Below, piece after piece: positions 12,787-30,830 of a DNA stretch of 64,000 bases. Origin of the DNA: Alteromonas sp. BL110 (GTDB taxonomy: Bacteria; Pseudomonadota; Gammaproteobacteria; Enterobacterales; Alteromonadaceae); NCBI RefSeq assembly GCF_003443615.1, contig NZ_CP031967.1:248001-312000 (forward strand), in the 5' to 3' direction. The position numbers and the translations under genes are program-made. The stretch's first letter is position 1. Each line of letters starts with the position of its first letter. Below the pieces are notes generated by a model. It did no database searches. It was not told the DNA's origin and saw nothing but the letters and a program-made list of their open reading frames with translations.

Positions 12787-12866
12787 GTGGACAGACACTT
12801 ATTTTGTAAGCCAATTTCAGACAGTCACTTGTAACTATACCCACGTTTGATTGTGGACAGACACTT
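12787..12866 (-). repeat. Repeat cluster A, three copies of the AAGTGTCTGTCCAC family
   Basis: Copies lie at 12787-12800 (exact GTGGACAGACACTT), 12817-12830 (degenerate, CAGACAGTCACTT) and 12853-12866 (exact), all in the same orientation between the trp terminator and the pyridoxamine-oxidase-like gene. Spacing is about 30-36 bases. A short duplication (ATAGCCAATAGTGGA) just precedes the first copy. Confidence 0.8.
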
Positions 12867-12931
12867 GTTTGACTGAGCCGCTTTCGTAGCTTTTCAAAAA
12901 TACGTTATGCCATTGACTCTAAACATTGGGT

Positions 12932-13396
12932 TTACAGGTCTACCTTTTCGTGGTCGCCCATCTCTTCTGGCTTCACTGTTTTCCCCGTCATCATTTTGAA
13001 CATGCCTTTAAGTGAAGGGTCTGCATCCCACACCTCTGCATCAGCTAACTCAAAGCGAAGCATTAACAAAGCAGGGTCATCTTTACCTTTCTCGAACCAT
13101 GCTTCTACTGGGTTAGACCAATATTTATCAATCACCTCTTTGCGTGACTCAACGGTGAGATTGCCTCGAATACACGCAAATACATCGTGCCCCTTAGAAG
13201 CAAAGTGAACCATGGCTTTTCCACCTTTAGCAATGCGGTTGTCTCGACTAGTGTAAAACCAAAACTCGCTATCAGCGTCTTTATCAATTTGGGCGTACAT
13301 AGGCTCGGCATGCATATCCTCACCGACCAGACTTACCATTACCTTTGGGCTATCTGACATTGCTTTCCACATAGTTTTCTTAATATCGCTCGACAT
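12932..13396 (-). CDS. Pyridoxamine 5'-phosphate oxidase-like FMN-binding protein (general stress protein 26 type)
   Basis: The 154-residue protein has the split-barrel flavin-binding pattern: LVGEDMHAEPMYAQ, SEFWFYTSRDNRIAKGG, VHFASKGHDVFACIRG and the C-terminal basic/acidic end. Members bind FMN or F420 and are linked to stress, but the substrate is unknown. The AGGAGG-type ribosome site immediately before the ATG supports this start. Repeat copies flank it on both sides (12853 and 13418) in inverted orientation. Confidence 0.82.
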   Translation of the reverse strand: MSSDIKKTMWKAMSDSPKVMVSLVGEDMHAEPMYAQIDKDADSEFWFYTSRDNRIAKGGKAMVHFASKGHDVFACIRGNLTVESRKEVIDKYWSNPVEAWFEKGKDDPALLMLRFELADAEVWDADPSLKGMFKMMTGKTVKPEEMGDHEKVDL

Positions 13397-13417
13397 TGTT
13401 CCTCCTTGTTGAACGTA

Positions 13418-13966
13418 AAGTGTCTGTCCAACGCCTCTACTATTTAAGCGGCTGAACTAAGCACATTACTTTCAAGCTTTTGGTTTATTTGAAGTCTATG
13501 ACTCGCACATGGTATGCCAAAGAAACAAAAGCCAGCCAATTTTCTTGCCAAAAGCTATTGTTAAGAGACATGGTCACTTCCATCTACCCCCTGAGAAGTG
13601 CAGGTTCGGACAGACACTAACTTTGTAATTTCATTTCTAAAAGTTCTAGTGAAAATGGTGGACAGTCACTCAAAAGCACAGTGCCCCCGTTTGCTGTATC
13701 AGAAAACAATATTGTGGACAGACACTTTTTCAAAGCCAGAGTAAAGATTACTCAATACCGTTGCGTTAATAACCTTCTAATTTTTTAGATCAGTAACTCC
13801 TGCAAACCAGACTTTGAATCGAGCTTTAAAACCAAACTTTGTACAGACACTCTACAATTAACCTCGAAACCTATGCCCATCTAAGTGTCTGTCCACACCT
13901 GTACTTTGCTTTAAAATTTTACGCAGCCACTCATATGGCTAACTAATCTTGTCTATGTCTGTCCAC
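13418..13966. repeat. Repeat cluster B, seven copies in the 714-base gap
   Basis: The gap 13397-14110 has no convincing gene. It holds copies at 13418-13430 (plus), 13608-13618, 13658-13670, 13714-13727 (exact), 13841-13851 (minus), 13883-13896 (exact, plus) and 13955-13966 (plus). The last minus copy and first following plus copy form an inverted pair about 30 bases apart. The remainder is AT-rich; only the promoter just before 14111 is recognisable. Confidence 0.8.
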
Positions 13967-14033
13967 TCTTTTGTAAATGCCATTTACTTAAGGCTTATAT
14001 ACAGTTTTTAATCTGCAAGGTAGACTAAAACCT

Positions 14034-14067
14034 AGTTCAGAATGGGTTCAGTTAACCAAGTTATACT
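14034..14067 (+). promoter_or_regulatory. PhoP-type box and -10 upstream of the PepSY/two-component operon
   Basis: AGTTCA (14034-14039) and GGTTCA (14045-14050) form a direct repeat with an exact 11-base period. This matches the PhoP box layout (K-GTTTA, N5, K-GTTTA) with T-to-C changes. TATACT (14062-14067) follows 11 bases later, the distance expected for PhoP-activated promoters. It suggests autoregulation of the operon. Confidence 0.5.
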
Positions 14068-14110
14068 TATCTTTAGTTTGGCCTGAATGGGATAATATTT
14101 GTGAGGTTGT

Positions 14111-14380
14111 ATGACATCATCGCTTCGTGTTGCAGTAGTTTGTTTAATGTTAGCCTCATCTAACATAGCGCCCGCTATGGCGTTGCAAGGCTCTGGGAGC
14201 GATATCTCAAAAAGCGAAGCAGCAGAGCGCGCTCGCGCTGCTGCAAATGGACGCGTTTTAAAAGTTGAAAAAACCTCAAAAAACTACCGTGTTAAAGTCC
14301 TCAAAAAGTCGGGACGAGTAGTATCGGTAGATGTAGACAAACGTTCCGGCAAGGTGAAAACAAGCAAAGATAAGGACTAA
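14111..14380 (+). CDS. Small periplasmic PepSY-domain protein
   Basis: This 89-residue protein has a signal peptide (hydrophobic stretch VAVVCLMLASSNIAPAMA, likely cleaved after AMA) and one PepSY-like domain (SEAAERARAAANGRVLKVEK, then YRVKVLKKSGRVVSVDVDKRSGKV). PepSY proteins are often encoded next to histidine kinases or proteases and may modulate them. It is one base upstream of the response regulator gene and probably co-transcribed with it. GAGG (14103-14106) serves as ribosome site. Confidence 0.8.
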   Translation: MTSSLRVAVVCLMLASSNIAPAMALQGSGSDISKSEAAERARAAANGRVLKVEKTSKNYRVKVLKKSGRVVSVDVDKRSGKVKTSKDKD

Positions 14381-14381
14381 C

Positions 14382-15056
14382 ATGCGCATTCTGGTAGCGG
14401 AAGACGACAGCAGATTATTAACTCAACTTGATGCACTGCTTCAACAAAACGGTTACAGCGTAGATTTAGCTGATAACGGCGAACACGCGCTTTTCCTCAT
14501 TAAAGAATATAGCTATGACTTGGCTATCGTCGACATAGGTATGCCAAAACTTGACGGCTTTGAGGTTATAAGAAAAGCTCGCCAAGCTGACATCGCATGC
14601 CCCATACTTATTCTAACAGCGAGAGATCGTTGGCAAGAAAAGGTAGAAGGACTTGATGCAGGCGCCGATGACTACCTCACTAAGCCTTTTCATAACGAAG
14701 AACTGCTTGCTCGGACGAAAGCTCTCATTCGAAGAGCTTCAGGACAAGCAAACCCTACGATTCAGTTCGGTCCTATTTCGCTGGATACAGTAAGCGAAGA
14801 GCTATCGCTAAACGGTGAGGCTTTAGATTTAACCGCGTATGAATACAAAGTTATGGAGTACCTTATGCTCAATCCGCAAAAGGTCATCTCTAAAACAGAG
14901 CTAACCGAACATATTTACGATCAAGATTTCGATTTAGACAGCAATGTCATTGAAGTTTTTGTAGGAAGACTGCGCAAGAAATTAGACCCGTCAGGTGAAT
15001 TGAAACCAATCGAAACGCTTCGAGGTAGAGGCTACAGGATCAATAGAAGTTTATGA
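14382..15056 (+). CDS. OmpR-family response regulator, PhoP-like
   Basis: The 224-residue protein has a receiver domain with the acidic pair E7-D8-D9, phospho-acceptor Asp51 in AIVDIGMPKLDG, and Lys in LTKPF. A C-terminal winged-helix domain includes YKVMEYLMLNPQKVISKTELTEHIY and the recognition-helix end LRGRGYRI. It pairs with the overlapping downstream kinase gene (four-base overlap). The kinase's similarity to PhoQ and an upstream PhoP-like box suggest a PhoP role, but QseB/PmrA-type regulators look similar. Confidence 0.92.
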   Translation: MRILVAEDDSRLLTQLDALLQQNGYSVDLADNGEHALFLIKEYSYDLAIVDIGMPKLDGFEVIRKARQADIACPILILTARDRWQEKVEGLDAGADDYLTKPFHNEELLARTKALIRRASGQANPTIQFGPISLDTVSEELSLNGEALDLTAYEYKVMEYLMLNPQKVISKTELTEHIYDQDFDLDSNVIEVFVGRLRKKLDPSGELKPIETLRGRGYRINRSL

Positions 15057-16384
15057 GGCAGTTGTCGCTTCGTTTACGAAGTATATTTCTAGCGATAGTT
15101 CTACTTGCACTTTTTGCGCCTTTTACTGTTGTCATTTTGGACGAAGCTTATACCGATAGCCTTACACAAGCCAAGATGAGCGAGCTTAGGTTGATGAACT
15201 TGGGGCTGCTATCTGCTTTCGAGTTAGATGGCGACCTGCCCTATATGCCTGAAATTTTATACGAAGAACAGCTAAACCTACCTGGCTCTGGTTATCTTGG
15301 CGTTATCGTTTTTCGAGATGAAGTGATTTGGCAGTCAGCTTCTGCCCTAGAGTATACTTTTTCTCCACCCGAAATAGACGTGGCAGTAGGTAACGAGTTG
15401 TTCTTGGAATCCTATACTCCCACATTTGAGGAAGCATCCCAATTTTTTGTATATGCCTTTACTGCTGAGTTTGCATCAAGCAGAGATTTCGAACCAGTAA
15501 GGTTTTATATATTTAATAATAAAGCACTTTTTGAAGCTGAGAGAAATACTTTTTTAAGCACAACGTGGCAATGGATAGTCACTCTTTGCATTGCACTTTT
15601 AGTCTTTATCATTATAGGTATAAGCTTAGTTCTTCTACCTGTTAGAAAGCTGATTGACGAAATTTCACAAGCTTCTAGCGGTAACAAACGAGAGTTAGAA
15701 TCTCGATACCCCGTCGAATTTGATTCTTTAAAAGAGTCTATCAACGGATTACTTCAAACTGAAGCTGCCCAAAGAGCTAGGTATAAAAACAGCTTAGGTG
15801 ACCTAGCACATAGTTTGAAAACACCACTTGCAGTAGCTTCGGGGAATAGCAATTTACCAACCGAAGTAAAAGACTCGCTTCAGCAAATTGACAGAATCAT
15901 TAAACGCCAGCTGAAAAGAGCAAGTGCAGGAAAATCTGGTTGGCAACAAGCTATTGATGTTTTGCCCGTATTGCACAAACTTGCCGATGCTATGGACAAA
16001 GTTTATCAAGAGAAAGCCCTAACCATTGAAATCGAAATGGATGATAACCTCCAGTTCAAAGGGGACGAAACAGACTTTATGGAGCTTTGTGGCAACCTCT
16101 TAGATAATGCGTGCAAAGCGGCTCGGGGTAGAATCGTTATCTCTGCAGAAACGAGTGGGGGTTGGCTCACAATCAATGTTGAAGATGACGGACCAGGTAT
16201 ACCGGACGACAAAAAAGTACTTTTACTAGAGCGAGGAACCCGACTTGATACCTACACAGAAGGCCACGGAATTGGAATGGCCCTGGCTACCGACCTAGTT
16301 TCAATCTACGAGGGTAGAATGCTTATCAAAGACAGCGCGCTTGGCGGCGCTCGTATCGTTATTCAATTCCCAAATCACGATTAG
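15053..16384 (+). CDS. Sensor histidine kinase, PhoQ-like
   Basis: The 443-residue inner-membrane kinase has two transmembrane segments (about residues 11-29 and 172-195) that bracket a periplasmic sensor of about 140 residues rich in acidic residues. HAMP and dimerisation segments follow. The phospho-acceptor His253 lies in LGDLAHSLKTPLAV, a form of the H-box typical of PhoQ. The ATPase domain has LLDNACKAA (N-box), DDGPGIP and GHGIGMALA (G-boxes). It overlaps the response regulator stop by four bases. The signal is unknown; Mg2+ or cationic peptides are possible by analogy. Confidence 0.9.
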   Translation: MRQLSLRLRSIFLAIVLLALFAPFTVVILDEAYTDSLTQAKMSELRLMNLGLLSAFELDGDLPYMPEILYEEQLNLPGSGYLGVIVFRDEVIWQSASALEYTFSPPEIDVAVGNELFLESYTPTFEEASQFFVYAFTAEFASSRDFEPVRFYIFNNKALFEAERNTFLSTTWQWIVTLCIALLVFIIIGISLVLLPVRKLIDEISQASSGNKRELESRYPVEFDSLKESINGLLQTEAAQRARYKNSLGDLAHSLKTPLAVASGNSNLPTEVKDSLQQIDRIIKRQLKRASAGKSGWQQAIDVLPVLHKLADAMDKVYQEKALTIEIEMDDNLQFKGDETDFMELCGNLLDNACKAARGRIVISAETSGGWLTINVEDDGPGIPDDKKVLLLERGTRLDTYTEGHGIGMALATDLVSIYEGRMLIKDSALGGARIVIQFPNHD

Positions 16385-16452
16385 TTGTGTAAAAGTCCAC
16401 AGGCTAAGGCATAAAGCAGTGAGCCTTTAACGGTTGAAAGCGAGCCTAAAAA

Positions 16453-16687
16453 GGACACACACTTAATTTTTCTCAAAAAGCCTGATATCGGACAGACACT
16501 TTTTAAATTTACCGTTTAGCTATGCGGCATTAAGGTTGCTAAAAACATTTGAGTGTCTGTCCCTTTTACAACTTTCTCTTTAAAGCTTTATGGACCAGTA
16601 GCTTGTAATGGACAGTCACTTTCTTTAAAAAAGTGCCTGTCCTCTAAAGAAAGTACTTTGCACAAGTCCAAGCAAGTGTCTGTCCAC
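16453..16687. repeat. Repeat cluster C, six copies in the 333-base gap before the perM-like gene
   Basis: The gap 16385-16717 is convergent between genes and holds copies at 16453-16464 (degenerate), 16490-16501, 16551-16563, 16609-16621, 16631-16642 and 16674-16687 (exact). 16490/16551 and 16609/16631 are inverted pairs. The second pair can fold into a tight hairpin with stems GGACAGTCACTTT and AAAGTGCCTGTCC. No gene is supported in this gap. Confidence 0.8.
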
Positions 16688-16717
16688 TATCTATTGATGC
16701 GCTATATTGATCTAGGT

Positions 16718-18200: not shown

Positions 18201-18222
18201 GTTATACCGGAAGGAGCTAATC

Positions 18223-19119
18223 GTGAACATTCTTTTGACTGGTGGTACCGGGCTGATTGGCAGAGAATTTATTCGCCAATATTCAGATAAACACTCATTC
18301 ACTGTGATTTCTCGCGATATTGCAAAGGCAAAGAATAAACTAGGAAATCGAGTTGATATTGTAGAAAGCATTGCTTCGATAAAAAACTTCGAGAACTTCG
18401 ATGCTGTTATAAATTTAGCTGGTGAACCTATCGCTGATAAACGTTGGACAGCCACTCAAAAGAAAAGGATTTGCGATAGCCGTTGGGATATTACTGCTGA
18501 ATTAGTTTCTAAAATAAACAGCTGTGAAACACCGCCGTCAGTTTTCTTATCGGGTTCTGCAATTGGTTATTACGGCAGCCAGGGAGACAGGCTTGTAACT
18601 GAAGAGACCTCTGCTCGCGATGAGTTCACCCATGATTTATGTGCAAAATGGGAAGCTATTGCTCAAGGCGTAGATCAAACGAAAACTCGTGTGGTTACGC
18701 TCCGTACTGGCGTAGTGCTTACCGATAAAGGCGGAGCGCTTGGAAAAATGGCTATGCCCTTTAAGCTAGGTGCCGGAGGTACACTGGGGAGTGGAAATCA
18801 GTACTTAGCTTGGATTCACTTACAGGACATGGTTAGTGCTATCTCTTTTTTGTTAGAAGATAGCGCTTGTACTGGTGCGTTCAATTTAACTGCTCCGGAG
18901 CCTGTTACGAACAAGGTGTTTTCTAAAACGCTTGCGAAAGCGCTGGGTCGCCCTTGCCTTTTTAACGTACCGAGCTTCGTTATGAAGATAGCAATGGGCG
19001 AGTCATCAAAGATGATATTAGAGGGTCAACGAGTCATTCCTCAAAAGCTTATCTCTGCTGGCTTCAAGTTCGGGCTCCCGTCTATCGAAGAAGCGCTGGA
19101 CGAGATATACAGCAGCTAA
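18223..19119 (+). CDS. yfcH: TIGR01777 family NAD-dependent epimerase (YfcH)
   Basis: The 298-residue extended SDR-type protein starts with the Rossmann motif NILLTGGTGLIG and contains INLAGEPIADKRWT, SGSAIGYYGSQG, LRTGVVL and the C-terminal GFKFGLPSIEEALDEI. The start codon is GTG at 18223, supported by AAGGAG at 18211-18216. The substrate is unknown. The C-terminal DUF1731 segment is complete. It follows folX by 22 bases. Confidence 0.9.
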   Translation: MNILLTGGTGLIGREFIRQYSDKHSFTVISRDIAKAKNKLGNRVDIVESIASIKNFENFDAVINLAGEPIADKRWTATQKKRICDSRWDITAELVSKINSCETPPSVFLSGSAIGYYGSQGDRLVTEETSARDEFTHDLCAKWEAIAQGVDQTKTRVVTLRTGVVLTDKGGALGKMAMPFKLGAGGTLGSGNQYLAWIHLQDMVSAISFLLEDSACTGAFNLTAPEPVTNKVFSKTLAKALGRPCLFNVPSFVMKIAMGESSKMILEGQRVIPQKLISAGFKFGLPSIEEALDEIYSS

Positions 19120-19146: not shown

Positions 19147-19385
19147 GTGGACAGACACTCAAATTCAAAAGAAAGTGTGTGTCCACATTTGATACTTTTG
19201 ACTGCTGACAAACTCGCTTCGGACAAGGATACTACTTGCTTCCAAAATACATCACAGTGTAAGTGTATTATGAATCGTTGTGTTTGAGTAAGAAGAAATC
19301 CAAGGCGGGCAAAACAAAAATGAACAGACTCTCTCTGCAGACACCTAAAGCGAACAGCCACTCTTTGTAGCTGAGTGACTGTCCA
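19147..19385. repeat. Repeat cluster D, one hairpin pair and a third copy
   Basis: GTGGACAGACACT (19147-19159) and AGTGTGTGTCCAC (19174-19186) are near-perfect inverted repeats with one G:G mismatch and a loop of about 14 bases. A further copy (GAGTGACTGTCCA) lies at 19373-19385. The gap 19120-19401 has no supported gene. Confidence 0.82.
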
Positions 19386-19401
19386 AACCATAAATGTAGA
19401 C

Positions 19402-21924
19402 CTAAACCATATTCCTTAGCATCTGTCCAGTATTCAGCGTAAGCAACCGATAGCAACCAAACGCACCTAGAACGCCTACAACAATGGCACCGACGCTTGG
19501 TGCTATAGCCCAGTACTCAGGATGTAAACTCGCTTCCATTTGAAATACTGTGGTTTGCAGTAAGTACAAACTTAATTCGTTCGCCATTGCAGCCATAAAG
19601 CCTGCGACTACGCCGATGATAACAAATTCAAAAATTACGCTTTTCCTTATTAGACTGCCCTTAGCACCAAGTGTGCGAAGTATGGCTATTTCCTGCTTGC
19701 GCTCATCCATACTCGCCTGTACCTGCGCTATTAATACTAGACTTCCCGACATTAAAACCAGTACCAAAATAAACTCAACGGCGACAGAAACCTGGTCCAC
19801 AATCTCTCGAAGTTGATTTATTCGAGCGTCTACATCAAACATTGTGATTGAAGCAAATGGCTTTAAGAGGTTCGTTAACTCAGCCTTCCTATCGGTGGGC
19901 AGGTAAAAACTAGTGATATACGTTGGGCTGAACGCAGCCATCGCATCTGGATGGATAACGAAAAAGAAATTAGGCTGCATGGTCTGCCAGTTAACGGTTC
20001 GAATACTCGTTACTTTCGTTTCAACGATTTCGCTTCCCACATTAAAAGTAAGCCTATCGCCCATTTCAATATTTAATCTTTTAGCCACACCTTCTTCAAC
20101 AGAGACTGGGAACCATCCTTCGGTGTACTGTGTTTCCACATTTCCATGCCATTTCCCTTCAATAATCTCGTTTTCTTTTTGTAACGAGTTACTCCACGTT
20201 AGGTTCGCTTCTCTACCTAGACCTCTTCGACCTTCACGATTTGGCTCGTCCTCTTTGGAAACTTCAGTATTGACCCCTTCCCCATTTACCGAAACGAATC
20301 GCCCTCGGATAACAGGATAAAACTCTTCGATATTTACCCCATTATCAGCGAAGTGCCTGTCCAATTCTGGCTGAATGTCCGGTGTGATGTTTATCAAGAA
20401 GTAGTTTGGTGTACCTTCGGGTAATTGCGAACGCCATTGCGAAACCATGTCATTTCGCATTACTAGAACCACTAAAAGCAGCATTATAGTGACTGAAAAG
20501 CTAATAAGCTGCACACTGTTGTCCATCGCTCTGCGCTTAATGCGTGCCCAAGCTAATTGCCATGGGCCCATTCTGCCACTACCCAGCTTGCGACCAATCG
20601 CAATTAGGATATAGGTTGCGCCAAGCAGCCCAAGAACAAGCGCGGCACCAGACACAAATAAAATAGCGCTAATTTTGAGATCGCGACTGTACATCCACAT
20701 CAATAAGAATATCGCGCCGCCTGAAGCCACAAACTGAATGCTTCTGGAACGGAGATTCGCCGAGATGTCTTTTCTTAATACGCGAAGCGGGGGCACTGAA
20801 AACAGCTGCAAAAGCGGATACAGGGAAAAGAGCAAAGCACAAGTCGCGCCTGTAGCAACGGCAATTAAGACCGGCCGCCAGTGCCAAACGTCAAGGGATA
20901 CATCCACTCTATCCGCTACCAGAGTAACCACTACTTGTTGTCCGATAAAACCGATAACAAGACCGATGAAAATACCCAGTACGGTAATAAATAAAATCTG
21001 AAACAAGTATACTTTTCGGATTATTTTACTTGTTGCACCTAAGGTCTTCATTATTGCTACGGGGTCAAAGTGGCGCTGGGCATAACGCTGCGCAGCAACA
21101 GCAATCGAGACCGCTGCCAACACTATGGCTAACAAACTCGCTAAAAGAAAATAACGCTCGGCACTTGCCACTGAGCGTCCTATTGCTGACTCATCATCTT
21201 CGACTGTCCGCCACGAATGTAAATCGTCATTCAGTTGAGGCAGTAACCATTTATTGAAACTTTCCAGATCGCCTAAGTCACCCGCAAAAAAGCCAACATA
21301 ACGAGCCCGACTTCCTGGACCAGTAACGGCGGTTTTATCTAAATCGCTCAAATCGATAAGTGCGATTGGGTCGGTGTTAAATACACTAAAACCTGCATCC
21401 GGAATGTCTACTAAAACATGCGTTACCGTAAAAGTGCCATCGCCAATTTCTATGTCATCGCCAATAGTGAGCCCTAAATTCTGAAAAAGCCGAGACTGAA
21501 CCCAGACTTCGCCCGGCTTTGGCAGTTCAGTAGTAGCGCGTTTTTCTCCAAAAGGCTGATTAGTAATATTGACTGTCCCTTTTAGAGGATAAGCGTTGTT
21601 CACCGCTCGCAAATCGACAAGCGACATCTCGTCATCTTTAAATACCATTGAGCGTGTCGCCACTTGCTTTGCAGTCGCGAGCCCTTCTTCTCGCGCTCTA
21701 GCTAACCAATCTTCGTTTATAGGGTCGTCTGAACGAAGCTGAGCATCTGCTGCAATAAACGCAGCTGAGCGAGACTTGAGTGCGCCTTGCAAGCGCTCAC
21801 TAAACAGCGACAGCGACAACACGGCCGCTACAGACAACACTATAGCCAGCAATATAATGGTGAGTTCGCCGCGCCTGGCTTCATGCTTAAAAAGCCGCCA
21901 AGCTAAATTAAAAGACGTCGACAT
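19402..21924 (-). CDS. ybbP: ABC transporter permease, FtsX/MacB type (YbbP-like)
   Basis: The 840-residue inner-membrane protein has an N-terminal TM, a large extracytoplasmic domain, three TMs (about 255-390), another set of central TMs, a second extracytoplasmic domain and C-terminal TMs (DERKQEIAILRTLGAKGSLIRKS is the conserved coupling element). This 10-TM double FtsX layout is YbbP. With YbbA it is thought to extract or move lipids or hydrophobic compounds. It abuts the ybbA stop. A degenerate repeat copy at 20351-20363 encodes ELDRHF. Confidence 0.88.
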   Translation of the reverse strand: MSTSFNLAWRLFKHEARRGELTIILLAIVLSVAAVLSLSLFSERLQGALKSRSAAFIAADAQLRSDDPINEDWLARAREEGLATAKQVATRSMVFKDDEMSLVDLRAVNNAYPLKGTVNITNQPFGEKRATTELPKPGEVWVQSRLFQNLGLTIGDDIEIGDGTFTVTHVLVDIPDAGFSVFNTDPIALIDLSDLDKTAVTGPGSRARYVGFFAGDLGDLESFNKWLLPQLNDDLHSWRTVEDDESAIGRSVASAERYFLLASLLAIVLAAVSIAVAAQRYAQRHFDPVAIMKTLGATSKIIRKVYLFQILFITVLGIFIGLVIGFIGQQVVVTLVADRVDVSLDVWHWRPVLIAVATGATCALLFSLYPLLQLFSVPPLRVLRKDISANLRSRSIQFVASGGAIFLLMWMYSRDLKISAILFVSGAALVLGLLGATYILIAIGRKLGSGRMGPWQLAWARIKRRAMDNSVQLISFSVTIMLLLVVLVMRNDMVSQWRSQLPEGTPNYFLINITPDIQPELDRHFADNGVNIEEFYPVIRGRFVSVNGEGVNTEVSKEDEPNREGRRGLGREANLTWSNSLQKENEIIEGKWHGNVETQYTEGWFPVSVEEGVAKRLNIEMGDRLTFNVGSEIVETKVTSIRTVNWQTMQPNFFFVIHPDAMAAFSPTYITSFYLPTDRKAELTNLLKPFASITMFDVDARINQLREIVDQVSVAVEFILVLVLMSGSLVLIAQVQASMDERKQEIAILRTLGAKGSLIRKSVIFEFVIIGVVAGFMAAMANELSLYLLQTTVFQMEASLHPEYWAIAPSVGAIVVGVLGAFGCYRLLTLNTGQMLRNMV
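20351..20363 (+). repeat. Degenerate repeat copy inside ybbP
   Basis: AAGTGCCTGTCCA lies in the permease gene and is read on the other strand as LDRHF. It differs from the consensus by one base in the core. Confidence 0.45.
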
Positions 21925-22639: not shown

Positions 22640-23296
22640 GTGTTTGTTAAATTTCGTTATTTGTTCGCTTTTTTACTTATTCTTTTAATACCCTTTCAAG
22701 CGCTATCAGATCAAGCCAAGAACAGTGACACAAGCGAAAATGCGGTTTTGCTAGTCTTGGGTGACAGTTTATCCGCGGCTTATGGATTACAGCAACATGA
22801 AGGTTGGGTCAGTTTGTTACAAAAAATGTGGCAAGACGATAATATTCCGATTGATATTGTAAACGCTGCGGTAAGCGGAGAAACCACTGATGGCGGCTTA
22901 GCGCGATTTCCCCGTTTATTAGAGCAACACAACCCTACCCATGTACTAATTGAACTGGGAGGCAACGACGGGCTTCAGGGTCATAATATTGGCAAGATTA
23001 GAAACAACTTGAGTTCATTGGTAAAGGTTGCAAAAGAAAATAATGCCGTCGTATTTTTGCAAGAAATGCAAATTCCTTCTAATTATGGAAGGCGTTATAC
23101 CCAAATGTTTACCGAAAACTTCAGTAAGGTAGCCGAGATCCAAAACGTTCAGAAAATTCCTTTTTTTCTCGAAGACATAGCGCTGAATAAAGACTTAATG
23201 CAAAACGATGGAATTCACCCAAATGCTGAGGCACAACCGTTGATCGCTAAACTTATGGACAGACACTTAAGAAGTTTAATCCTTAAAGCTCAATAA
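22640..23296 (+). CDS. tesA: GDSL arylesterase / lysophospholipase (TesA)
   Basis: The 218-residue secreted hydrolase has a signal peptide (hydrophobic residues 7-22, then SDQA). The SGNH blocks are the GDSL serine (Ser43 in GDSLSAAYG), the glycine and asparagine blocks (GGNDGLQG), and the Asp/His block DGIHPNAEA. I chose the GTG at 22640: it follows AAGAGGT and gives a proper signal peptide. A longer open frame would run antisense through the start of ybbA. Near the C-terminus an exact repeat copy is translated as LMDRHLRS. Confidence 0.88.
   Translation: MFVKFRYLFAFLLILLIPFQALSDQAKNSDTSENAVLLVLGDSLSAAYGLQQHEGWVSLLQKMWQDDNIPIDIVNAAVSGETTDGGLARFPRLLEQHNPTHVLIELGGNDGLQGHNIGKIRNNLSSLVKVAKENNAVVFLQEMQIPSNYGRRYTQMFTENFSKVAEIQNVQKIPFFLEDIALNKDLMQNDGIHPNAEAQPLIAKLMDRHLRSLILKAQ
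23255..23268 (-). repeat. Repeat copy inside the tesA C-terminus
   Basis: ATGGACAGACACTT lies about 30 bases before the tesA stop and is read in-frame as MDRHL, so it supplies part of the enzyme's C-terminal tail. Confidence 0.75.
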
Positions 23297-23543: not shown

Positions 23544-23586
23544 AAAGGACAGACACTTGCTAGCCAAAGATTGTCTGTCCTTTTTC
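23544..23586 (+). terminator. Terminator-like hairpin made from two inverted repeat copies
   Basis: AAAGGACAGACA (23544-23555) pairs perfectly with TGTCTGTCCTTT (23572-23583), a 12-base stem with a 16-base loop, followed by a T-rich run. It lies 19 bases after the stop of the 60-residue protein. The arms are copies of the dispersed repeat. Confidence 0.72.
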
Positions 23587-23628
23587 TTATGCATTTTTTA
23601 TTTTTTGACATATGAGTGTTTACCTATT

Positions 23629-23693
23629 CACTATCAAACTTAAGTGTCTATCCATTACTCCTCTCCCACTATCAAACTTGAGTGTCTGTCCAT
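23629..23693 (+). repeat. Two 27-base direct repeats carrying the repeat core
   Basis: CACTATCAAACTTAAGTGTC at 23629 onward and CACTATCAAACTTGAGTGTC at 23667 onward are the first 20 bases of two 27-base units, 38 bases apart, differing at two positions. The similarity extends 12 bases beyond the core on one side, so this is a recent local duplication. Confidence 0.8.
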
Positions 23694-23855: not shown

Positions 23856-24830
23856 ATGCCTTTACCTCGTTACAAACAAATTAACACCGATGTCACGCCT
23901 TACTACCATTGTATTTCTCGCTGCGTAAGGCAATCCTATCTGTGTGGTCGTGATTCACGCACGGGCATAAACTACGAACATAGAAGAAAATGGATTCAAG
24001 ATAGGCTTCACAAGCTATCGCAAGCTTTTGCAATTGATTTATGCGCTTACGCTGTAATGCATAACCATATTCATGTTGTACTCCATATAGCGAAGGGGAG
24101 AGCTGATGGCTGGACCATGGATGAAGTATTGCTTAGATGGAGAATGTTTTACAAATGCCCTCCCCTAGTACAGCGATATCTAGAAGACTTTGAATCAGTA
24201 ACAGTAGAAGAGCGAGAAGAATTGAAGTCGCTATCTGTTATATATCGAGAGCGACTTCAAAGCATAAGCTGGTTTATGCGCCTGTTAAATGAATACATAG
24301 CTCGCAAAGCTAATAAAGAAGATGAGTGTAAAGGCTATTTCTGGGAGAGAAGATTTAGATCTCAAGCAATACTGGATGAAAAAGCGCTGGCAAGCGTGAT
24401 GGCATATGTCGATTTGAACCCCATCAGAGCAAAGACAGCGAAAACACTCAACAACTCCCATTACACTAGTATTCAGTACCGCTTAAATGCAAAGCGCTCG
24501 AACAAAGTACCTAAGTTTCTAATGCCCTTTAATGACAGTAAGAAAAAGCTAGCTGAGAGTTTGCCTTTTGCTTTTAAAGATTACTTACAACTTGTTACTG
24601 ATACATTGAACGTAGAGCGGAATAGCAAGACCTGCAGAGTGCCAAAGCTTCCTAACAGATTGCTCGATAAGCTTGGGATGACAAAAGAAAATTGGCACCT
24701 AGTGACCAGTAACTTCGAAACCCTCTTTACCGGTCCTGTCGGGTGTCCAGAGATGATGGAGAATTTTGCTAGATGTTGCCAAAGAGCATGTCGCCCCAAC
24801 GTTTCTAATGCTCAGAAATATTTATCTTGA
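23856..24830 (+). CDS. REP-associated tyrosine transposase-like protein (Y1 HUH family)
   Basis: The 324-residue protein is a Y1 transposase of the IS200-like superfamily. The HUH metal motif is H-N-H-I-H (residues 69-73, after CAYAVM) and the catalytic tyrosine is probably Tyr184 in AYVDLNPIRA, a signature characteristic of RAYTs. The N-terminus PRYKQINTDVTPYYHCISRC is also typical. It is longer than the short enteric form (about 165 residues). RAYTs usually occur once per genome, are not flanked by IS ends, and are tied to dispersed REP repeats. No flanking inverted repeats or target duplications were seen here, while the surrounding 18 kb is rich in one short repeat. Confidence 0.87.
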   Translation: MPLPRYKQINTDVTPYYHCISRCVRQSYLCGRDSRTGINYEHRRKWIQDRLHKLSQAFAIDLCAYAVMHNHIHVVLHIAKGRADGWTMDEVLLRWRMFYKCPPLVQRYLEDFESVTVEEREELKSLSVIYRERLQSISWFMRLLNEYIARKANKEDECKGYFWERRFRSQAILDEKALASVMAYVDLNPIRAKTAKTLNNSHYTSIQYRLNAKRSNKVPKFLMPFNDSKKKLAESLPFAFKDYLQLVTDTLNVERNSKTCRVPKLPNRLLDKLGMTKENWHLVTSNFETLFTGPVGCPEMMENFARCCQRACRPNVSNAQKYLS

Positions 24831-25795: not shown

Positions 25796-25892
25796 TACAG
25801 ACGTCTCACGTTAATAGAACATAAAATTGGCGCGGGAGTTTAGCAAAAAGCGTTAATTTCAGCCAGACTTTGGTGCTTAGTTTATCAACTTT

Positions 25893-26056
25893 GTGACTGT
25901 CCGTTTCATTGGACTAAGAACACTGCTGAATGGATTGTCCTAATGATGAGTAAGTGCCTGTCTACGAAGCTATCTAAGTCGTACCTGTCCACGGAGCTAA
26001 CTAAGTCGTGTGGCTTTTCGGCTAAGTGCTGAGTTAAAGCTTGAGTGTCTGTCCAC
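25893..26056 (+). repeat. Repeat cluster E, four copies
   Basis: The 333-base gap 25796-26128 between dusC and a DUF1289 gene has no supported gene. Copies are at 25893-25902 (GTGACTGTCC), 25952-25965 (degenerate), 25981-25992 (degenerate) and 26043-26056 (exact core GAGTGTCTGTCCAC). The second and third share flanking sequence (CTAAGTCGT, CGAAGCTA/CGGAGCTA), again pointing to local tandem duplication. Confidence 0.72.
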
Positions 26057-26128
26057 TAAAAAAGGGGCTGTTATAAAGCGGTTTATTATCTTAGTTACAA
26101 CGTCAAATTTTAGCTTATCATTATCACA

Positions 26129-26302
26129 TCATTTGGAAGTAGTATCCTTATCTATACTCTTTAGGCGAGCAAGTACGGCCAGCTTTTGGTTGTCAGTGTA
26201 TGTCCGCCATTTTACGATTTCATCAATAGTACGTTTGCATCCGACGCAAATTTCATCTTCATTCAATCTACACAAGGCGATACACGGTGATGTTGAACTC
26301 AT
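26129..26302 (-). CDS. DUF1289 family small protein (57 aa)
   Basis: The 57-residue frame has the DUF1289 cysteine pattern: PCIALCRLNEDEICVGCKRT followed by IDEIVKW. Four cysteines (C-x3-C-x7-C-x2-C) suggest a metal-binding site. The function is unknown. The ATG at 26300-26302 overlaps the TGA of the upstream gene (ATGA), so the two are probably translationally coupled. A degenerate repeat copy at 26194-26207 lies within the coding sequence, read as RTYTD. Confidence 0.8.
   Translation of the reverse strand: MSSTSPCIALCRLNEDEICVGCKRTIDEIVKWRTYTDNQKLAVLARLKSIDKDTTSK
26194..26207 (+). repeat. Degenerate repeat copy inside the DUF1289 gene
   Basis: CAGTGTATGTCCGC matches the consensus at most positions. 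It is translated on the other strand within WRTYTDN. Confidence 0.45.
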
Positions 26303-26520
26303 AAAGCTTCTGTTTTATCTAAACCTTCATTTTTACTTTTTGCATGCGAAGTAGCTATAGCCGCCATTGTGTTTTCCGACAGTTCTTTATTTGACCATAA
26401 ACAAACATGACAACCAAAACGCGATTCAAGATATGAAGCAAACTCAGTGTCTGTCCGACATTCATACCGCACTAAATTTTGTTTTTTGCCGTCGTAAATA
26501 ACTGCAGAATAAATAAACAC
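26299..26520 (-). CDS. Small hypothetical protein (73 aa)
   Basis: The product begins MFIYSAVIYDGKKQNLVRYE and contains CRTDTEFASYLES and FGCHVCLWSN. I do not recognise the family. Its stop overlaps the start of the DUF1289 gene, so co-expression is likely. GGAGGC-like sequence just before the ATG supports the start. A repeat copy at 26445-26457 encodes CRTDTE, so part of this protein comes from the dispersed repeat. Confidence 0.6.
   Translation of the reverse strand: MFIYSAVIYDGKKQNLVRYECRTDTEFASYLESRFGCHVCLWSNKELSENTMAAIATSHAKSKNEGLDKTEAL
26445..26457 (+). repeat. Repeat copy inside the 73-aa hypothetical gene
   Basis: CAGTGTCTGTCCG is a near-exact copy, read on the minus strand in a third frame as CRTDT. 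Confidence 0.7.
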
Positions 26521-26578
26521 AGAAGCCTCCTATAAAAGAGGCTCAAATATACATCTAGACGTCTAAACGTTCAACCGT

Positions 26579-27484: not shown

Positions 27485-27718
27485 ATAACACCTCTTTTTC
27501 TATTTAGAAGATCATAACAGCTCAGTAAGCTTTCGTATCTATTCTAAAAGAGATTAATCGACAGTTGTGACATAAGATCTTTACGCTTCATATCCTAAAA
27601 AGTTAAATGTTCAGCGGTGTGTTGGCGCCTACCCTTGCAAACGATTAGTTCACTCTAGAATAAGAATGAAAGGTTTACTTAGTATTACTTGGATGGCTAT
27701 TTGCTAAGAAAAAAATGT

Positions 27719-27846
27719 GAGTGACTGTCCACTGGCTGCACTTCAATAGTTATTTGCTGAGGAAGAAAATATAAGTGACTGTCCGCTAGCAGCACTGGCA
27801 GTTAAAAGCGGTTAGTGGTTGAGGAAGTATAAAAGTGTCTGTCCAC
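27719..27846 (+). repeat. Three imperfect tandem repeats carrying the dispersed core
   Basis: Cores GTGACTGTCC (27721-27730), GTGACTGTCC (27775-27784) and GTGTCTGTCC (27835-27844) are spaced 54 and 60 bases apart. The preceding 25-30 bases are also similar in each unit (TTTGCTAAGAAAA, TTTGCTGAGGAAGAAAA, GTGGTTGAGGAAGTA). The gap 27485-27901 otherwise shows only a terminator at its end. Confidence 0.75.
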
Positions 27847-27860
27847 AAAGTTTCCGGAGA

Positions 27861-27894
27861 CAAAAACAAAAAAACCAGCCGGATGGCTGGTTTT
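27861..27894 (-). terminator. Terminator of the tRNA-Ala/Glu array
   Basis: AAAACCAGCC (27871-27880), loop GGAT, GGCTGGTTTT (27885-27894). On the minus strand the hairpin is followed by a T-tract (plus-strand A-runs at 27861-27873). It closes the tRNA transcript. Confidence 0.88.
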
Positions 27895-27901
27895 CTCGAT
27901 A

Positions 27902-27977
27902 TGGCGTCCCCTAGGGGATTCGAACCCCTGTTACCGCCGTGAAAGGGCGGTGTCCTAGGCCTCTAGACGAAGGGGAC
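27902..27977 (-). tRNA. tRNA-Glu(UUC), copy 4 of the array
   Basis: This 76-base tRNA starts GTCCCCTTCGTCTAGAGG and ends with an encoded CCA. The anticodon loop CCTTTCAC gives UUC. The acceptor stem GTCCCCT/AGGGGAC is fully paired. Confidence 0.97.
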
Positions 27978-28134
27978 TGAAAATCTTCTTTCGAAAGCTT
28001 TGCCTTCGATATTTTCAGTAAGGAGAAGTGAGCCAGCGAACTGAGCGACCTTACCCTACCGAAACTTTCAGTCAGAAGTTGAATAATCAACTCCAGCCTA
28101 TTTCACAGTTTTAATCGACTGTGACGCGATAAAA

Positions 28135-28210
28135 TGGCGTCCCCTAGGGGATTCGAACCCCTGTTACCGCCGTGAAAGGGCGGTGTCCTAGGCCTCTAGA
28201 CGAAGGGGAC
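28135..28210 (-). tRNA. tRNA-Glu(UUC), copy 3 of the array
   Basis: It is identical to the neighbouring tRNA-Glu copies, with UUC anticodon and encoded CCA, in a roughly 231-base repeated unit. Confidence 0.97.
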
Positions 28211-28365
28211 AGAAATTTTGTTCAGTGAAGCGAAGCTTCACTAAATTTCTGTAAGGAGAGGTGAGCTCTGCGAACCGAGCGACCTTATTCTTACTGAAAT
28301 TTCTATCCGAAGTTTAATCAACTCCAGCCTATTTCACAGTTTTAATCGACTGTGACGCGATAAAA

Positions 28366-28441
28366 TGGCGTCCCCTAGGGGATTCGAACCCCTGTTACCG
28401 CCGTGAAAGGGCGGTGTCCTAGGCCTCTAGACGAAGGGGAC
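28366..28441 (-). tRNA. tRNA-Glu(UUC), copy 2 of the array
   Basis: Identical tRNA body, UUC anticodon and encoded CCA. The spacer up to the next copy is nearly identical to the adjacent spacer, including an AGTGAAGC/GCTTCACT hairpin. Confidence 0.97.
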
Positions 28442-28596
28442 AGAAATTTTGTTCAGTGAAGCAAAGCTTCACTAAATTTCTGTAAGGAGAGGTGAACTCT
28501 GCGAACCGAGCGACCTTATTCTTACTGAAATTTCTATCCGAAGTTTAATCAACTCCAGCCTATTTCACAGTTTTAATCGACTGTGACGCGATAAAA

Positions 28597-28672
28597 TGGC
28601 GTCCCCTAGGGGATTCGAACCCCTGTTACCGCCGTGAAAGGGCGGTGTCCTAGGCCTCTAGACGAAGGGGAC
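28597..28672 (-). tRNA. tRNA-Glu(UUC), copy 1 of the array
   Basis: This is the first tRNA-Glu after tRNA-Ala in transcription order, with the same 76-base body, UUC anticodon and CCA end. Confidence 0.97.
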
Positions 28673-28818
28673 AGAAATTTTGTTCAATGAAGCTAAGCTT
28701 CACTAAATTTCTGTAAGGAGAGGTGAGCTCTGCGAACCGAGCGACCTTATTCTTACTGAAATTTCTATCCGAAGTTTAATAAACTTCAGCCTATATCAAA
28801 CCACAACTCAATGTGACT

Positions 28819-28894
28819 TGGTGGAGCCAGGCGGGATCGAACCGCCGACCTCCTGCATGCCATGCAGGCGCTCTCCCAGCTGAGCTATGGCCCC
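28819..28894 (-). tRNA. tRNA-Ala(GGC)
   Basis: The 76-base tRNA starts GGGGCCATAGCTCAGCTGGG, with anticodon loop GCATGGCATGC giving GGC, and an encoded CCA. It is the first tRNA of the minus-strand array. Confidence 0.96.
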
Positions 28895-28942
28895 ATCATG
28901 GTACCAGTCATTTTGTGTGACTGTTCCGTGACAGCGGGGCGC

Positions 28943-28971
28943 ATTCTAGGCATCCCCTTCTGTCATGTCAA
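28943..28971 (-). promoter_or_regulatory. Promoter of the tRNA-Ala/Glu array
   Basis: On the minus strand TTGACA (28966-28971) and TAGAAT (28943-28948) are spaced 17 bases apart. The -10 is followed by GCGCCCCGC, a GC-rich discriminator typical of stringently controlled stable-RNA promoters. Confidence 0.8.
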
Positions 28972-28979
28972 CGCTTTTT

Positions 28980-30389
28980 TTATGAATTTTCTCTGTTTGC
29001 TATAAAAGTAAGCGCTTTGTCGATTCTCTCGCCAATTTTCTCTTTTGAGATAAGATTCAACGTGATATCTAGAGACGGTGAATTGCCACCACCTGTCACA
29101 GCTACACGCAGCGGCATGCCTACTTTACCCATACCTACTTCCAGTTCTTCAGCCGTACTATTAATAGCAGCTTGGATATTTTCTGGGTTCCACTCTTCAA
29201 TTGCCATTAATTTATCTTTAGCAAGCTCTAATGGGCCTCGAGCGACAGGACGAAGGTGTTTTTTCGCGGCGTTCGCGTCGAAATCTTCATAGTCTTGATA
29301 AAAGTACGTAGAAATCTCTGCTAACTCTTTAAGTGTTTTAACTCTATCCGCTTGAATAGCAATTATCGATTCAAGCGCTGGGCCCGTTGTTAAATCAACG
29401 TTTAACTGTTCGAAATGCCATTTAGCATGTGAGGCAACCTCGCTTGCTGGCAATGACTTTATGTAATGCTGATTTAACCAAATTAGCTTTTCTGTATTAA
29501 ATGCCGATGCAGACTGCCCTATTGCATCCAAACTAAATTTCTCAATCATCTCATCGACAGAGAAAACTTCTTGGTCGCCGTGTGACCATCCCAATCTAAC
29601 AAGGTAATTAAGTACAGCCTGCGGTAGGAAACCATCATCACGATACTGCATGACGCTTACTGCACCATGACGTTTTGACAGTTTCTTACCGTCATCACCC
29701 AAAATCATAGAAACGTGGGCATATTCTGGAACCGGTGCACCAAGGGCTTCAAGAATATTTATTTGACGTGGCGTGTTATTAATGTGGTCTTCACCACGCA
29801 CTACATGCGAAATCCCCATGTCCCAATCATCCACAACTACACAGAAGTTATAGGTAGGCGTGCCATCAGTGCGCTGAATAATAAGATCATCAAGCTCTGT
29901 ATTGCTTATCTCAATTTTTCCACGGACATGGTCGTTAATAACCACTTTGCCTTCTAAAGGGTTTTTAAAGCGAATTACAAACGGCTGACCTTCAGGGTGG
30001 TCAGTTCTGTCTCTCCATGTACCTGGATAACGAGGTTTTTCACCGCGCTCTTTTTGTGCTTCACGAATAGCATCTAGTTCTTCAGAACTCATAAAGCATT
30101 TGTACGCTTTTCCTTCATCCAGAAGCTGCTGGATAAGTTCTTTATATCTATCAAAACGCTCAGTTTGATAGATAGGGCCTGTATCCCAGGTTAAACCTAA
30201 CCATTGCATACCGTCTAGAATAGCCTGCTTAGCCTCTTCTGTTGAACGTTCAATATCTGTATCTTCAATACGAAGAACAAACTCACCGCCTTTGCTTTTC
30301 GCAAGAAGCCAAGAATAAAGCGCAGTTCGTGCGCCACCAACATGAAGATAGCCTGTGGGGCTAGGTGCAAATCGTGTAACAACCGACAT
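28980..30389 (-). CDS. gltX: Glutamyl-tRNA synthetase
   Basis: The 469-residue class I synthetase has the HIGH-type motif in [15 protein letters not shown] near the N-terminus and the KMSKS-type motif [10 protein letters not shown] (about residues 237-246). The C-terminal anticodon-binding domain is complete. I prefer the ATG at 30389 ([11 protein letters not shown]) over a GTG two codons upstream because AGAGAG lies at the right distance. The gene sits directly upstream of an array encoding its own substrate, four tRNA-Glu genes, on the same strand. Confidence 0.95.
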
Positions 30390-30486
30390 GGTCACTCTCT
30401 ATTGTTAATAGTATTTCTAAAGATGGGCGCATTCTACCAGTCTCCGCACGACTTCAAAAGTAGGTTGAGAGTAGAAGGATAATAAA

Positions 30487-30830
30487 GTGGACAGGCACTT
30501 ATTGTCCCTAGTTAATTATCCAACAGCTTTTTCAGCTCAAATGAACTCACCGAATGACAATCTATTGCTCAACGAGCCAAAAAGGGACAGACACTTTTTT
30601 GATTTATAAGTGGGTGTCCGATGATATGAGCTGAAATGCTTTTAGGGTTGGTCGCGTTTAATTCTGCATTAATAAGTGTGTGTCCACTTTAACTTCACTT
30701 TAACCTTTTATAAATAGACATGAATAATCTGAATACTAATTGCAGGCTTGAACTTGGTAAGGGTGCCTTCCCGCACCAACTTGAAGCGAGTGTCTGTCCA
30801 TTTTAAGCATTTCAAATTAGTGTCTGTCCC
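30487..30830. repeat. Repeat cluster F, six copies in the gap before the tRNA-Val array
   Basis: The gap 30396-31030 has no supported protein gene. Copies lie at 30487-30500 and 30585-30596 (minus), then 30608-30619, 30674-30687, 30788-30800 and 30818-30830 (plus). The 30585/30608 pair is inverted with a short loop (GGACAGACACTT...AAGTGGGTGTCC). The last two are in tandem, 30 bases apart. Confidence 0.8.

Follow-up and report, generated by a model that had tools for sequence, protein, structure and literature searches.

The short repeats crowded into the window (the whole stretch analysed, 64,000 nt of the forward strand of Alteromonas sp. BL110, NZ_CP031967.1 positions 248,001-312,000, assembly GCF_003443615.1) are best read, with a probability of roughly 0.7, as the putative recognition sites, or end sequences, of a RAYT whose gene lies among them; they would have been copied, moved or rewritten locally and long kept as a field. 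RAYTs mobilise or maintain REP-type repeats; to our knowledge, their mode of spreading repeats is unsettled and their role for the cell unknown. In the reading we favour, the product would be a single-tyrosine HUH nuclease recognising a short site (GGACAGACACTT in this, the focal, genome and mostly [A/G]GACA[G/C]NCA[C/T] in relatives), which it would copy, move or rewrite chiefly close to its own gene, the field being built and kept up there over long evolutionary times. The enzyme would bind and nick the motif, new copies may arise through its single-strand cutting and joining together with tandem duplication, and the confinement could reflect either a preference for DNA near the gene or the decay of distant, unrenewed copies. 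Taken together, a local field, its absence from the gene-less relatives examined and a motif that differs with the gene suggest an enzyme that writes, or preserves, its recognition sites mainly in the part of the chromosome around its gene. The preliminary description had held this transposase responsible for the local repeats, and the comparisons below support it by correlation: neither of the contrary results it had named, a uniform genome-wide density or an equal abundance in relatives without the gene, was found, and related-motif fields at other RAYT loci and a lineage-specific main motif also back it.

The repeat and its copies in the window

Copies were counted as exact cores (AGTGTCTGTCC), as cores with at most one mismatch, or as 14-mers with at most three mismatches, and expected numbers in the window were taken from shuffles. 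The window holds 24 exact cores (0.00 expected) and 43 cores with at most one mismatch (0.50 expected); the interval 12,787-30,831 accounts for 36 of the latter, with both orientations represented (Table 1). The earlier estimate of about 40 copies, some 30 of them at 12.8-30.8 kb and in both orientations, thus holds, the pattern being stronger than first described, and the two copies reported in bio genes at 43-45 kb are real, but the copies before 12 kb, given as two, number four. Their placement in gene-free spacers was right as a tendency: in a 124-kb region, 20 of 53 copies fall inside ORFs of at least 90 aa, which by crude ORF calling cover 85% of it, so spacers are enriched and genes are not copy-free. 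Three 'copies' with three mismatches (28,205, 28,436 and 28,667) were rejected as family members, because each is the 5' end of one of the tandem tRNA-Glu genes.

A profile of 373 distinct copies yields a bare 11-bp core, without the GT[A/G]G tag found at the foot of palindromic repeats. C stands at +11 in 10% and at +12 in 47% of copies, and both are required for GGGGACAG. Two single copies were folded, and neither formed a hairpin better than shuffles; inverted pairs of copies do fold as hairpins. Among neighbouring copies less than 150 bp apart in eight related genomes, 138 pairs are direct and 44 and 3 are inverted, and the inverted doublet, the REPIN unit, is not the main unit here.

Table 1. 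The RAYT gene and repeat copies in the window (window positions)
Feature	Position	Strand	Remarks
Intragenic copy, PHP-domain gene	5101..5114	+	core 5102
Two intragenic copies, trpE-like gene	5938-5951 and 6366-6379	-	cores 5940, 6368
Intragenic exact 14-mer, trpC-F	10065..10078	-	core 10067
Two exact 14-mer copies in spacer	12787..12866	-	
Spacer copies	13418..13966	both	6 (core, <=1 mismatch) or 7 (14-mer, <=3 mismatches)
Spacer, 6 copies	16451..16687		16610(-)/16632(+) a hairpin pair by folding
One-mismatch copy within epimerase-type gene	18444..18457	-	
Inverted pair	19147..19186		hairpin by folding
One-mismatch copy in spacer	19373..19386	+	
One-mismatch copy within FtsX-type permease gene	20351..20364	+	here GAC AGG CAC
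Copy at GDSL-lipase gene 3' end	23255..23268	-	core intact in 5/5 aligned genomes
Four copies closely upstream of RAYT	23545..23693		hairpin pair 23547/23570; two in 38-bp tandem duplication
RAYT / Y1 HUH transposase gene	23856..24830	+	324 aa; HUH = H71-I-H73, Tyr184 in YVDLNP
Three copies past dus gene 5' end	25952..26207	+	14-mer, <=3 mismatches
Copy	26445..26458	+	core exact
Three copies	27719..27846	+	first two within 54-bp tandem duplication
Five copies, gltX to tRNA-Val array interval	30487..30831		
One-mismatch copy	37,123		
Intragenic exact 14-mer, bioD-like gene	43303..43316	+	core 43,304; core in 6/13 RAYT-bearing genomes
Intragenic copy near class I/II aminotransferase gene 3' end	44933..44946	+	core 44,934; core in 6/13 RAYT-bearing genomes

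Confinement around the RAYT gene

Over the whole 4.46-Mb genome there are 31 exact copies, of which 30 lie within 97 kb (C1:221,181-318,370), and the cluster extends beyond the left end of the window. Since 21 of these copies lie to the left and 9 to the right of the RAYT gene, the gene, said at first to sit near the centre of the density, lies inside the dense part and not at its exact middle. The whole-genome check that had been proposed, density against distance from the RAYT, gave no uniform distribution: in eight related genomes the first 2 kb beside the gene carry 1.9 copies/kb on the left and 1.4 on the right, compared with 0.08 copies/kb at 40-49 kb, the fall not being strictly monotonic. 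The median distance is 5-10 kb, and most copies lie within about 50-60 kb; those within about 60 kb make up 34/34 in G022, 36/36 in G024, 19/20 in G034 and 20/21 in G041. Exact copies were not nearer to the gene than one-mismatch copies as a rule (true in only 4 of 8 genomes). Uptake sequences and Chi- and KOPS-like motifs are classes of chromosome-wide motif, and such a genome-wide motif is ruled out by this distribution. In contrast, the focal genome has another RAYT type with two genes, and of the 76 copies of its motif 57 lie far from these.

The confinement is not perfect, as exact copies occur on contigs other than that of the RAYT in G038 (5/21), G001 (4/37), G012 (3/33) and G014 (2/7). 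Hits to the pattern outside the field number 16/44 in G007, 11/32 in G025 and 16/32 in G047, against 12, 9 and 8 control hits.

The RAYT gene and its product

The RAYT gene is a domesticated transposase gene. Its product carries the Y1 HUH hallmarks, i.e., the HUH motif and a single Tyr in Y---NP, and shares its fold with E. coli TnpAREP; H71, H73, Y184, N188 and P189 are invariant in 37/37 sequences, the catalytic assignment following the published signature. It is under purifying selection: dN/dS, computable for 3 of 10 relatives, is 0.03-0.08. A PDB sequence search with the RAYT gave no match up to E 1, and a Pfam-model search of the genome recovered two other genes and missed this one. RAYT matches occur in 51 of 59 Alteromonas genomes, with at most 19 per genome and four in the focal genome.

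Presence and absence among relatives

Among the 59 genomes of the genus, the 18 with an orthologue of at least 68% identity have 7-37 copies each, the 8 with one of 57-61% have 1-10, and the 33 with none above 56% have 0-7. Eight genomes have no RAYT match, and counts at the locus itself cover seven of them (G053, on a short contig, was left out) and exclude the 2.9-4.5 kb between the GDSL and dus genes. All seven have the same neighbouring genes and 0-1 copies, so that abundance in relatives lacking the gene, the second proposed check, does not match that in bearers. Few independent events may lie behind this pattern of presence and absence across the genus.

These genomes bear on the idea that the field grew from a neutral sequence simply by local tandem duplication and slippage, the RAYT playing no role. 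Tandem duplications that include flanks do occur, both in the window (27708/27762 and 23629/23667) and as arrays of 27-bp and 50-bp units in G020, but the copies face either way and are scattered over spacers and genes separated by tens of kilobases, they number 0-1 in seven RAYT-less genomes of the same gene order, and the same motif family recurs around other RAYT loci, and we regard this origin as very improbable.

No more credible is a recent horizontal transfer of the RAYT that left the repeats no time to spread, a reading that would account for the local concentration and that has been given for Marinomonas REPtrons in the available text of PMC8266576 and proposed for other RAYTs (PMC2817692, PMC8266576). 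The RAYT and its field share one syntenic locus in all 13 Alteromonas genomes of the synteny comparison, with RAYT identity down to 57%, and this synteny shows the locus to be old. Synonymous sites of the RAYT are saturated or at a dS of 1.7-2.1 in 9 of 10 comparisons, those of gltX less so (0.4-1.7), and the field has kept its place where its main motif is a different one; on these three grounds recent arrival is disfavoured.

Conservation and change at single sites

A stronger rival to mobilisation by the RAYT is that the copies are binding sites with a local role (regulation, transcription ends or DNA organisation) for the RAYT or a linked factor, which arose by point mutation and were kept by host selection. 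We consider this unlikely, though it deserves weight. Conservation is limited to the 11-bp core, with an identity of 0.90 vs 0.52-0.57 outside it at sites preselected as present in at least 4 genomes, and cores outlast their flanks: of 20 sites exact in G000, four relatives keep 15, 11, 11 and 9 intact, at flank identities of 0.74, 0.56, 0.43 and 0.46 (the aligner may favour motif matches). The low RAYT dN/dS and the hairpins of inverted pairs would also suit such sites. Against them, intragenic copies use all three reading frames of unrelated genes and vary in number, copies occur in tandem arrays and length-variable loops, and 19 of 65 aligned sites are present in a single genome, in several cases opposite gaps in the remaining genomes.

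In trpC-F, the core is intact in 6, one base off in 2 and absent in 5 of the 13 RAYT-bearing genomes, and it is absent from all four RAYT-less genomes in which the gene was found. The FtsX-type gene has a gap-free site, which is GAC AGA CAC in eight of the 13, GAC ACA CAC in three, GAC AGT CAC in one and GAC AGG CAC in the focal genome, where it is one base off the main motif. Agreement with the main field motif is seen in 11 of 13 genomes, the exceptions being the focal genome and G014, and no motif stands there in six RAYT-less genomes. Selection by the host has a claim on this site too, as its codon differs between lineages in much the same way as the motif and lies few base changes from the RAYT-less state. 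Still, the site is the best hint that the RAYT may overwrite some 11-14 bases in place near its gene, even within conserved coding genes, with sites following its changing specificity; we offer this form of the RAYT reading tentatively and doubt it more than we credit it. If true, the field would be a lasting footprint of one enzyme's chromosomal reach from its own gene.

Comparison with known systems

RAYT/TnpAREP REPtrons with GTAG REPs (groups 2 and 3, including REPINs) resemble the present system in their Y1 HUH enzyme with the E. coli TnpAREP fold and in short, spacer-enriched repeats, tied to one RAYT and arranged in tandem and inverted; a local concentration of repeats was noted for two Marinomonas REPtrons (PMC8266576, in part). 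The focal motif differs in that its 11-bp core lacks both the GTAG tag and a single-copy palindrome, its neighbours are mostly direct and not the inverted doublets of REPINs, and it numbers 7-37 exact copies per genome and is confined to the surroundings of the gene, with E. coli having about six hundred REPs by the consulted text of PMC8266576.

The focal RAYT fits TnpAY1 subclass 2.3, an assignment made by features and not by that subclass's sequences. Shared features are a length of about 325 aa (324 here) and occurrence in Alteromonadales, where a genome may carry several divergent copies; additional segments within the protein and an extended C-terminal part are probable further ones. The available portion of the 2018 survey (PMC6006769) places insertions between beta1/alphaA and beta3/alphaC in this subclass and gives it a two-part C-terminal tail; the model of the focal RAYT has possible counterparts in a long segment at 23-42, additional helices within 80-134 and further helices within 205-323. 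That portion of the survey reports no identifiable REP-like sequences for subclasses 2.1 and 2.3, whereas a cognate motif field is found here. In the literature searched, which excluded preprints and most subscription papers, we found no earlier report of subclass 2.3 repeats or of this Alteromonas field.

TIRYTs (TIRtrons), probably subclass 2.1 according to the same survey text (PMC6006769), may be alike in that the terminal inverted repeats beside their genes come from families of moderate abundance, but their TIR consensus as given in PMC3733652, GGGGWSAS, is unlike most focal copies, given the base frequencies at +11 and +12 stated above. The motif of the two shorter 2.1-like genes in the focal genome is the mostly dispersed one described above, whereas the focal motif is confined. 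IS200/IS605 elements differ in that in the focal clade the gene stayed at one locus, where the motif, not the gene, multiplied.

The locus thus supplies a candidate target motif for an orphan subclass, together with naturally matched enzyme-motif lineages and natural gene-less controls, and its long-lived, confined field argues against recent arrival as the sole cause of local clustering. RAYT specificity and reach can be tested directly here, using a single purified protein and short oligonucleotides (such as GGACAGACACTT, TTGGACAGTCA, TTGGACACACACT).

Motif variation and other RAYT loci

At the syntenic locus, the main motif is AGTGTCTGTCC in eight genomes, AGTGACTGTCC in G014, TGACTGTCCAA in G007 and the TGTGTGTCC form in G047 and G025; in G058 that form is level with AGTGACTGTCC. 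Replacement is not total, because most lineages carry AGTGACTGTCC as a minor variant. On a tree of 82 RAYTs, on which long branches are flagged, motif class changes 22 times against a shuffled mean of 41.7 (0/200 shuffles as low); the GGACACCCA, GGACAGTCA and GGACAGGCA groups are not clearly clustered on it, with 40, 110 and 500 of 500 shuffles as low.

The tree draws on a scan of 97 rows (72 of 79 named loci, 7 shorter than 10 kb being left out, plus 20 further loci and 5 regions, L144 recurring among the latter), from which 5 rows were omitted by name and 10 because the frame gave less than 230 aa. The 14 top named loci are all Alteromonas. At a threshold of at least 8 family motifs per RAYT locus, 45 of the 97 have a field and 52 lack a clear one (38 of the 82 in the tree), the latter including all loci scanned in Psychromonas, Colwellia, Oceanisphaera and Marichromatium.

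Polarity was counted at the 45 loci passing this threshold, 33 of them non-focal (32 without the repeated L144). Within 1 kb, a TIR-like arrangement is concordant at 21 non-focal loci and reversed at 2; beside the focal RAYT, orientation is mixed (focal loci: 4 and 1). A long-range mirror polarity, with a raw odds ratio of 6.2 over the 33 non-focal loci, is not claimed, because once runs were collapsed it did not hold firmly past 1 kb (beyond 1 kb, odds ratio 1.9 and p 0.03; beyond 2 kb, p 0.12) and because the focal clade is mixed.

Several paralogous RAYTs, here and in other genomes, have their own local fields of a related motif. Near the focal genome's paralogue at 4.158 Mb, 11 of the 15 copies of its motif lie within 11 kb. 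De novo search at the 500.9-kb paralogue yielded no motif; a single copy of the motif from 4.158 Mb is present 240 bp away from it. In G020, where the test covers 100 of 113 copies, 20 of 29 clusters lie within 30 kb of one of nine RAYTs against 3.8 expected, and 9 lie farther from any; two RAYT units in this genome are near-identical (97% over 1,253 bp).

The repeat field around the RAYT gene

The 11-mer core AGTGTCTGTCC was found 43 times in the window with at most one mismatch, against 0.50 copies expected, and 24 times exactly, against 0.00 expected, i.e., the short-repeat family that the preliminary description had placed around the RAYT gene is real. This genome is one contig of 4,458,618 bases, of which the window spans C1:248,001-312,000, and the core is not uniformly spread over the genome, as 30 of its 31 exact copies lie in a single stretch around the gene (see table). 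When the longer 14-mer form was searched genome-wide with two mismatches, 37 of the 52 matches fell in one stretch, and the remaining 15 are close to background, a reversed control pattern giving 20.

Features and their coordinates (C1, contig of the genome named)
Feature	Sequence	Position	Remark
Stretch holding exact core copies	this genome	C1:221,181-318,370	
Stretch holding 14-mer matches	this genome	237-319 kb	two mismatches
Focal RAYT gene	window	23856-24830 (+)	
tRNA-Glu genes	window	27902-28672	four in tandem, ~231-bp period, near gltX
tRNA-Val genes	window	31031-31442	four in tandem, 112-bp period, near gltX
RAYT paralogue with motif	this genome	4.158 Mb	
RAYT paralogue, no motif found de novo	this genome	500.9 kb	
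Shorter RAYT-type gene L001	this genome	C1:2,346,524 (2.35 Mb)	
Shorter RAYT-type gene L002	this genome	C1:3,036,356 (3.04 Mb)	
Interrupted RAYT reading frame	G043	C1:1,667,211-1,668,068	two stop codons
Regular tandem motif arrays	G020	C1:2,554,743-2,555,023 and 2,585,958-2,586,668	steps of 27 bp and 50 bp or multiples

In four relatives whose genomes are closed or nearly so, 34/34, 36/36, 19/20, and 20/21 copies are no farther than about 60 kb from the RAYT gene. In draft genomes, copies on contigs other than that of the RAYT gene numbered 5 of 21 (G038), 4 of 37 (G001), 3 of 33 (G012), and 2 of 7 (G014). Eight focal-clade regions hold 378 copies with at most one mismatch, whereas 60 shuffled 11-mers averaged 9.7 and reached 35 at most. 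In eight related genomes, whose distance counts are not independent because of that relatedness, density is 1.9 copies per kb on the left and 1.4 on the right within 2 kb of the gene. By 40-49 kb it has fallen to about 0.08 per kb, and on the left side there is a bump between 25 and 30 kb. The 5' ends of three of the window's tRNA-Glu genes resemble the motif at 3 mismatches.

Genomes with and without the RAYT gene

We grouped 59 genomes of the genus by the identity of their best RAYT orthologue. Exact copies numbered 7-37 in each of the 18 genomes, this one included, with an orthologue of at least 68% identity, 1-10 in the eight at 57-61%, and 0-7 in the 33 with none above 56%, most of which carry other RAYT relatives. 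Seven of the eight genomes lacking any RAYT match were searched at the syntenic locus (40 kb each, 20 kb for the last), where all seven keep the order FtsX-ABC-GDSL-Dus-M14-gltX with no RAYT between GDSL and Dus; with up to one mismatch, the motif was found there 0, 0, 0, 1, 0, 0, and 0 times. These counts, which are correlative, support the claim that this RAYT is responsible for the local spread. Motif copies also flank both sides of the interrupted reading frame in G043, which might offer a way of dating how a field decays once the enzyme has been lost.

The gene is syntenic in 13 genomes, with protein identity down to 57%, and the best 14 named loci matching it are all from Alteromonas. 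The main motif at this locus is AGTGTCTGTCC in eight genomes and AGTGACTGTCC in G014 (13 vs 5). G047 and G025 mainly have the TGTGTGTCC form; in G058, that form is on par with AGTGACTGTCC, itself a minor variant in most lineages. In G007 the main motif is TGACTGTCCAA, with 28 copies, and the focal 11-mer is absent. Motif class ("none" included) requires 22 changes on a tree of 82 RAYTs against a shuffled mean of 41.7, with 0 of 200 shuffles as low, a total to which near-copies contribute; the GGACACCCA, GGACAGTCA, and GGACAGGCA groups, each taken alone, show no clear clustering on the tree.

Turnover of sites and proposed mechanism

Of 65 sites over five aligned genomes, 16 are shared by every genome, 8 by four, 10 by three, and 12 by two, and 19 occur in a single genome. 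Of 20 exact sites in this genome, 15, 11, 11, and 9 are intact in four relatives with flank identity of only 43-74%, figures in which the aligner may have drawn motif copies together. Coding sites should be largely free of this doubt. At a gap-free site in the FtsX-type gene, eight genomes read GAC AGA CAC, this genome GAC AGG CAC, G058, G047, and G025 GAC ACA CAC, and G007 GAC AGT CAC. In 11 of these 13 genomes the site agrees with the field's main motif (the exceptions are this genome and G014). The motif is absent from the site in six RAYT-less genomes, and since the encoded L-x-x-H-F is partly retained in RAYT-less genomes, few base changes may have sufficed. In trpC-F the core occupies the place of unrelated codons without a gap, and the copies in bioD and at the second trpE site fall within length-variable loops. 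Because coding copies use all three reading frames, the constraint appears to be on the DNA.

Most likely, the motif would be what the RAYT recognises as an end or a site for nicking, and the enzyme would multiply or renew it by single-strand cutting and joining, assisted by tandem duplication, with a presumed preference for the chromosome stretch near its own gene. The main rival is that the copies are local binding sites maintained by selection; if these bind the RAYT itself, the RAYT would cause the field under both readings.

A profile of 373 distinct copies shows a bare 11-bp core with weak flank preferences (a purine before, A-C after). Predicted hairpins were no better than those of shuffles for single copies (two folded) and better for inverted pairs (four folded). 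Focal-clade neighbours less than 150 bp apart include 138 direct pairs, 44 inverted with GGACA outermost, and 3 the reverse; close neighbours at other loci number 205, 41, and 8, respectively. Within 1 kb of other RAYT genes, 21 loci speak for a TIR-like arrangement and 2 against, and orientation beside the focal gene is mixed. G020 carries a pair of RAYT units, 97% identical over 1,253 bp, whose upstream end lies inside an array of motif copies and whose downstream end, judged by eye, appears to adjoin a degenerate copy. These ends fit a reading in which the motif would have bounded a unit that was formerly mobile.

Fields at other RAYT loci

De novo k-mer counts revealed a [A/G]GACA[G/C]NCA[C/T]-type motif around many other RAYTs and none in eleven control pieces. 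At least 8 copies of the family motif occur at 45 of the 97 RAYT loci scanned, and fewer at 52. For the paralogue at 4.158 Mb in this genome, 15 copies of AAGACAGGCAT were counted, 11 of them no more than 11 kb away. In G020, where 100 of the 113 copies were used, 20 of 29 collapsed clusters have one of the nine RAYTs within 30 kb, against 3.8 expected. Matches to TGWSTGTCCAA around the orthologous RAYT number 28 of 44 in G007, 21 of 32 in G025, and 16 of 32 in G047, where genome-wide control matches number 12, 9, and 8. L001 and L002 share the motif ACTCTGACCCC, with 76 exact copies over the chromosome (control 0), many in tight inverted pairs; 19 are close to one of these genes and the other 57 are not, so strict confinement is a trait of the focal type rather than of every such repeat in this genome.

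Nunvar et al. 2010 proposed that REPs form preferentially near a rayt gene after its transfer (PMC2817692), and REPs found concentrated close to two genes of Marinomonas were read as a sign of recent arrival (PMC8266576). PMC3116915 describes three RAYTs each with an adjoining REPIN cluster, doublets being otherwise randomly distributed in that genome; TIRYTs are described in Di Nocera et al. 2013 (PMC3733652). Subclass 2.3 is defined in PMC6006769, which reports that subclasses 2.1 and 2.3 have no REP-like sequences. As far as our searches show, covering literature other than preprints and most subscription papers, a cognate motif for a gene fitting subclass 2.3, the long-lived confinement of its field, and a motif differing in step with the enzyme are new.

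Very dense fields surround RAYT relatives in Alteromonas indica (L169, 40 copies of AGACACCCA in ~21 kb) and Salinibius halmophilus (L196, 29 copies of GGACACCCA in ~21 kb). Loci L166, L173, and L175 come from a metagenome-assembled genome titled Klebsiella pneumoniae; their RAYTs fall together with RAYTs from an environmental gammaproteobacterium, and the title may be wrong.
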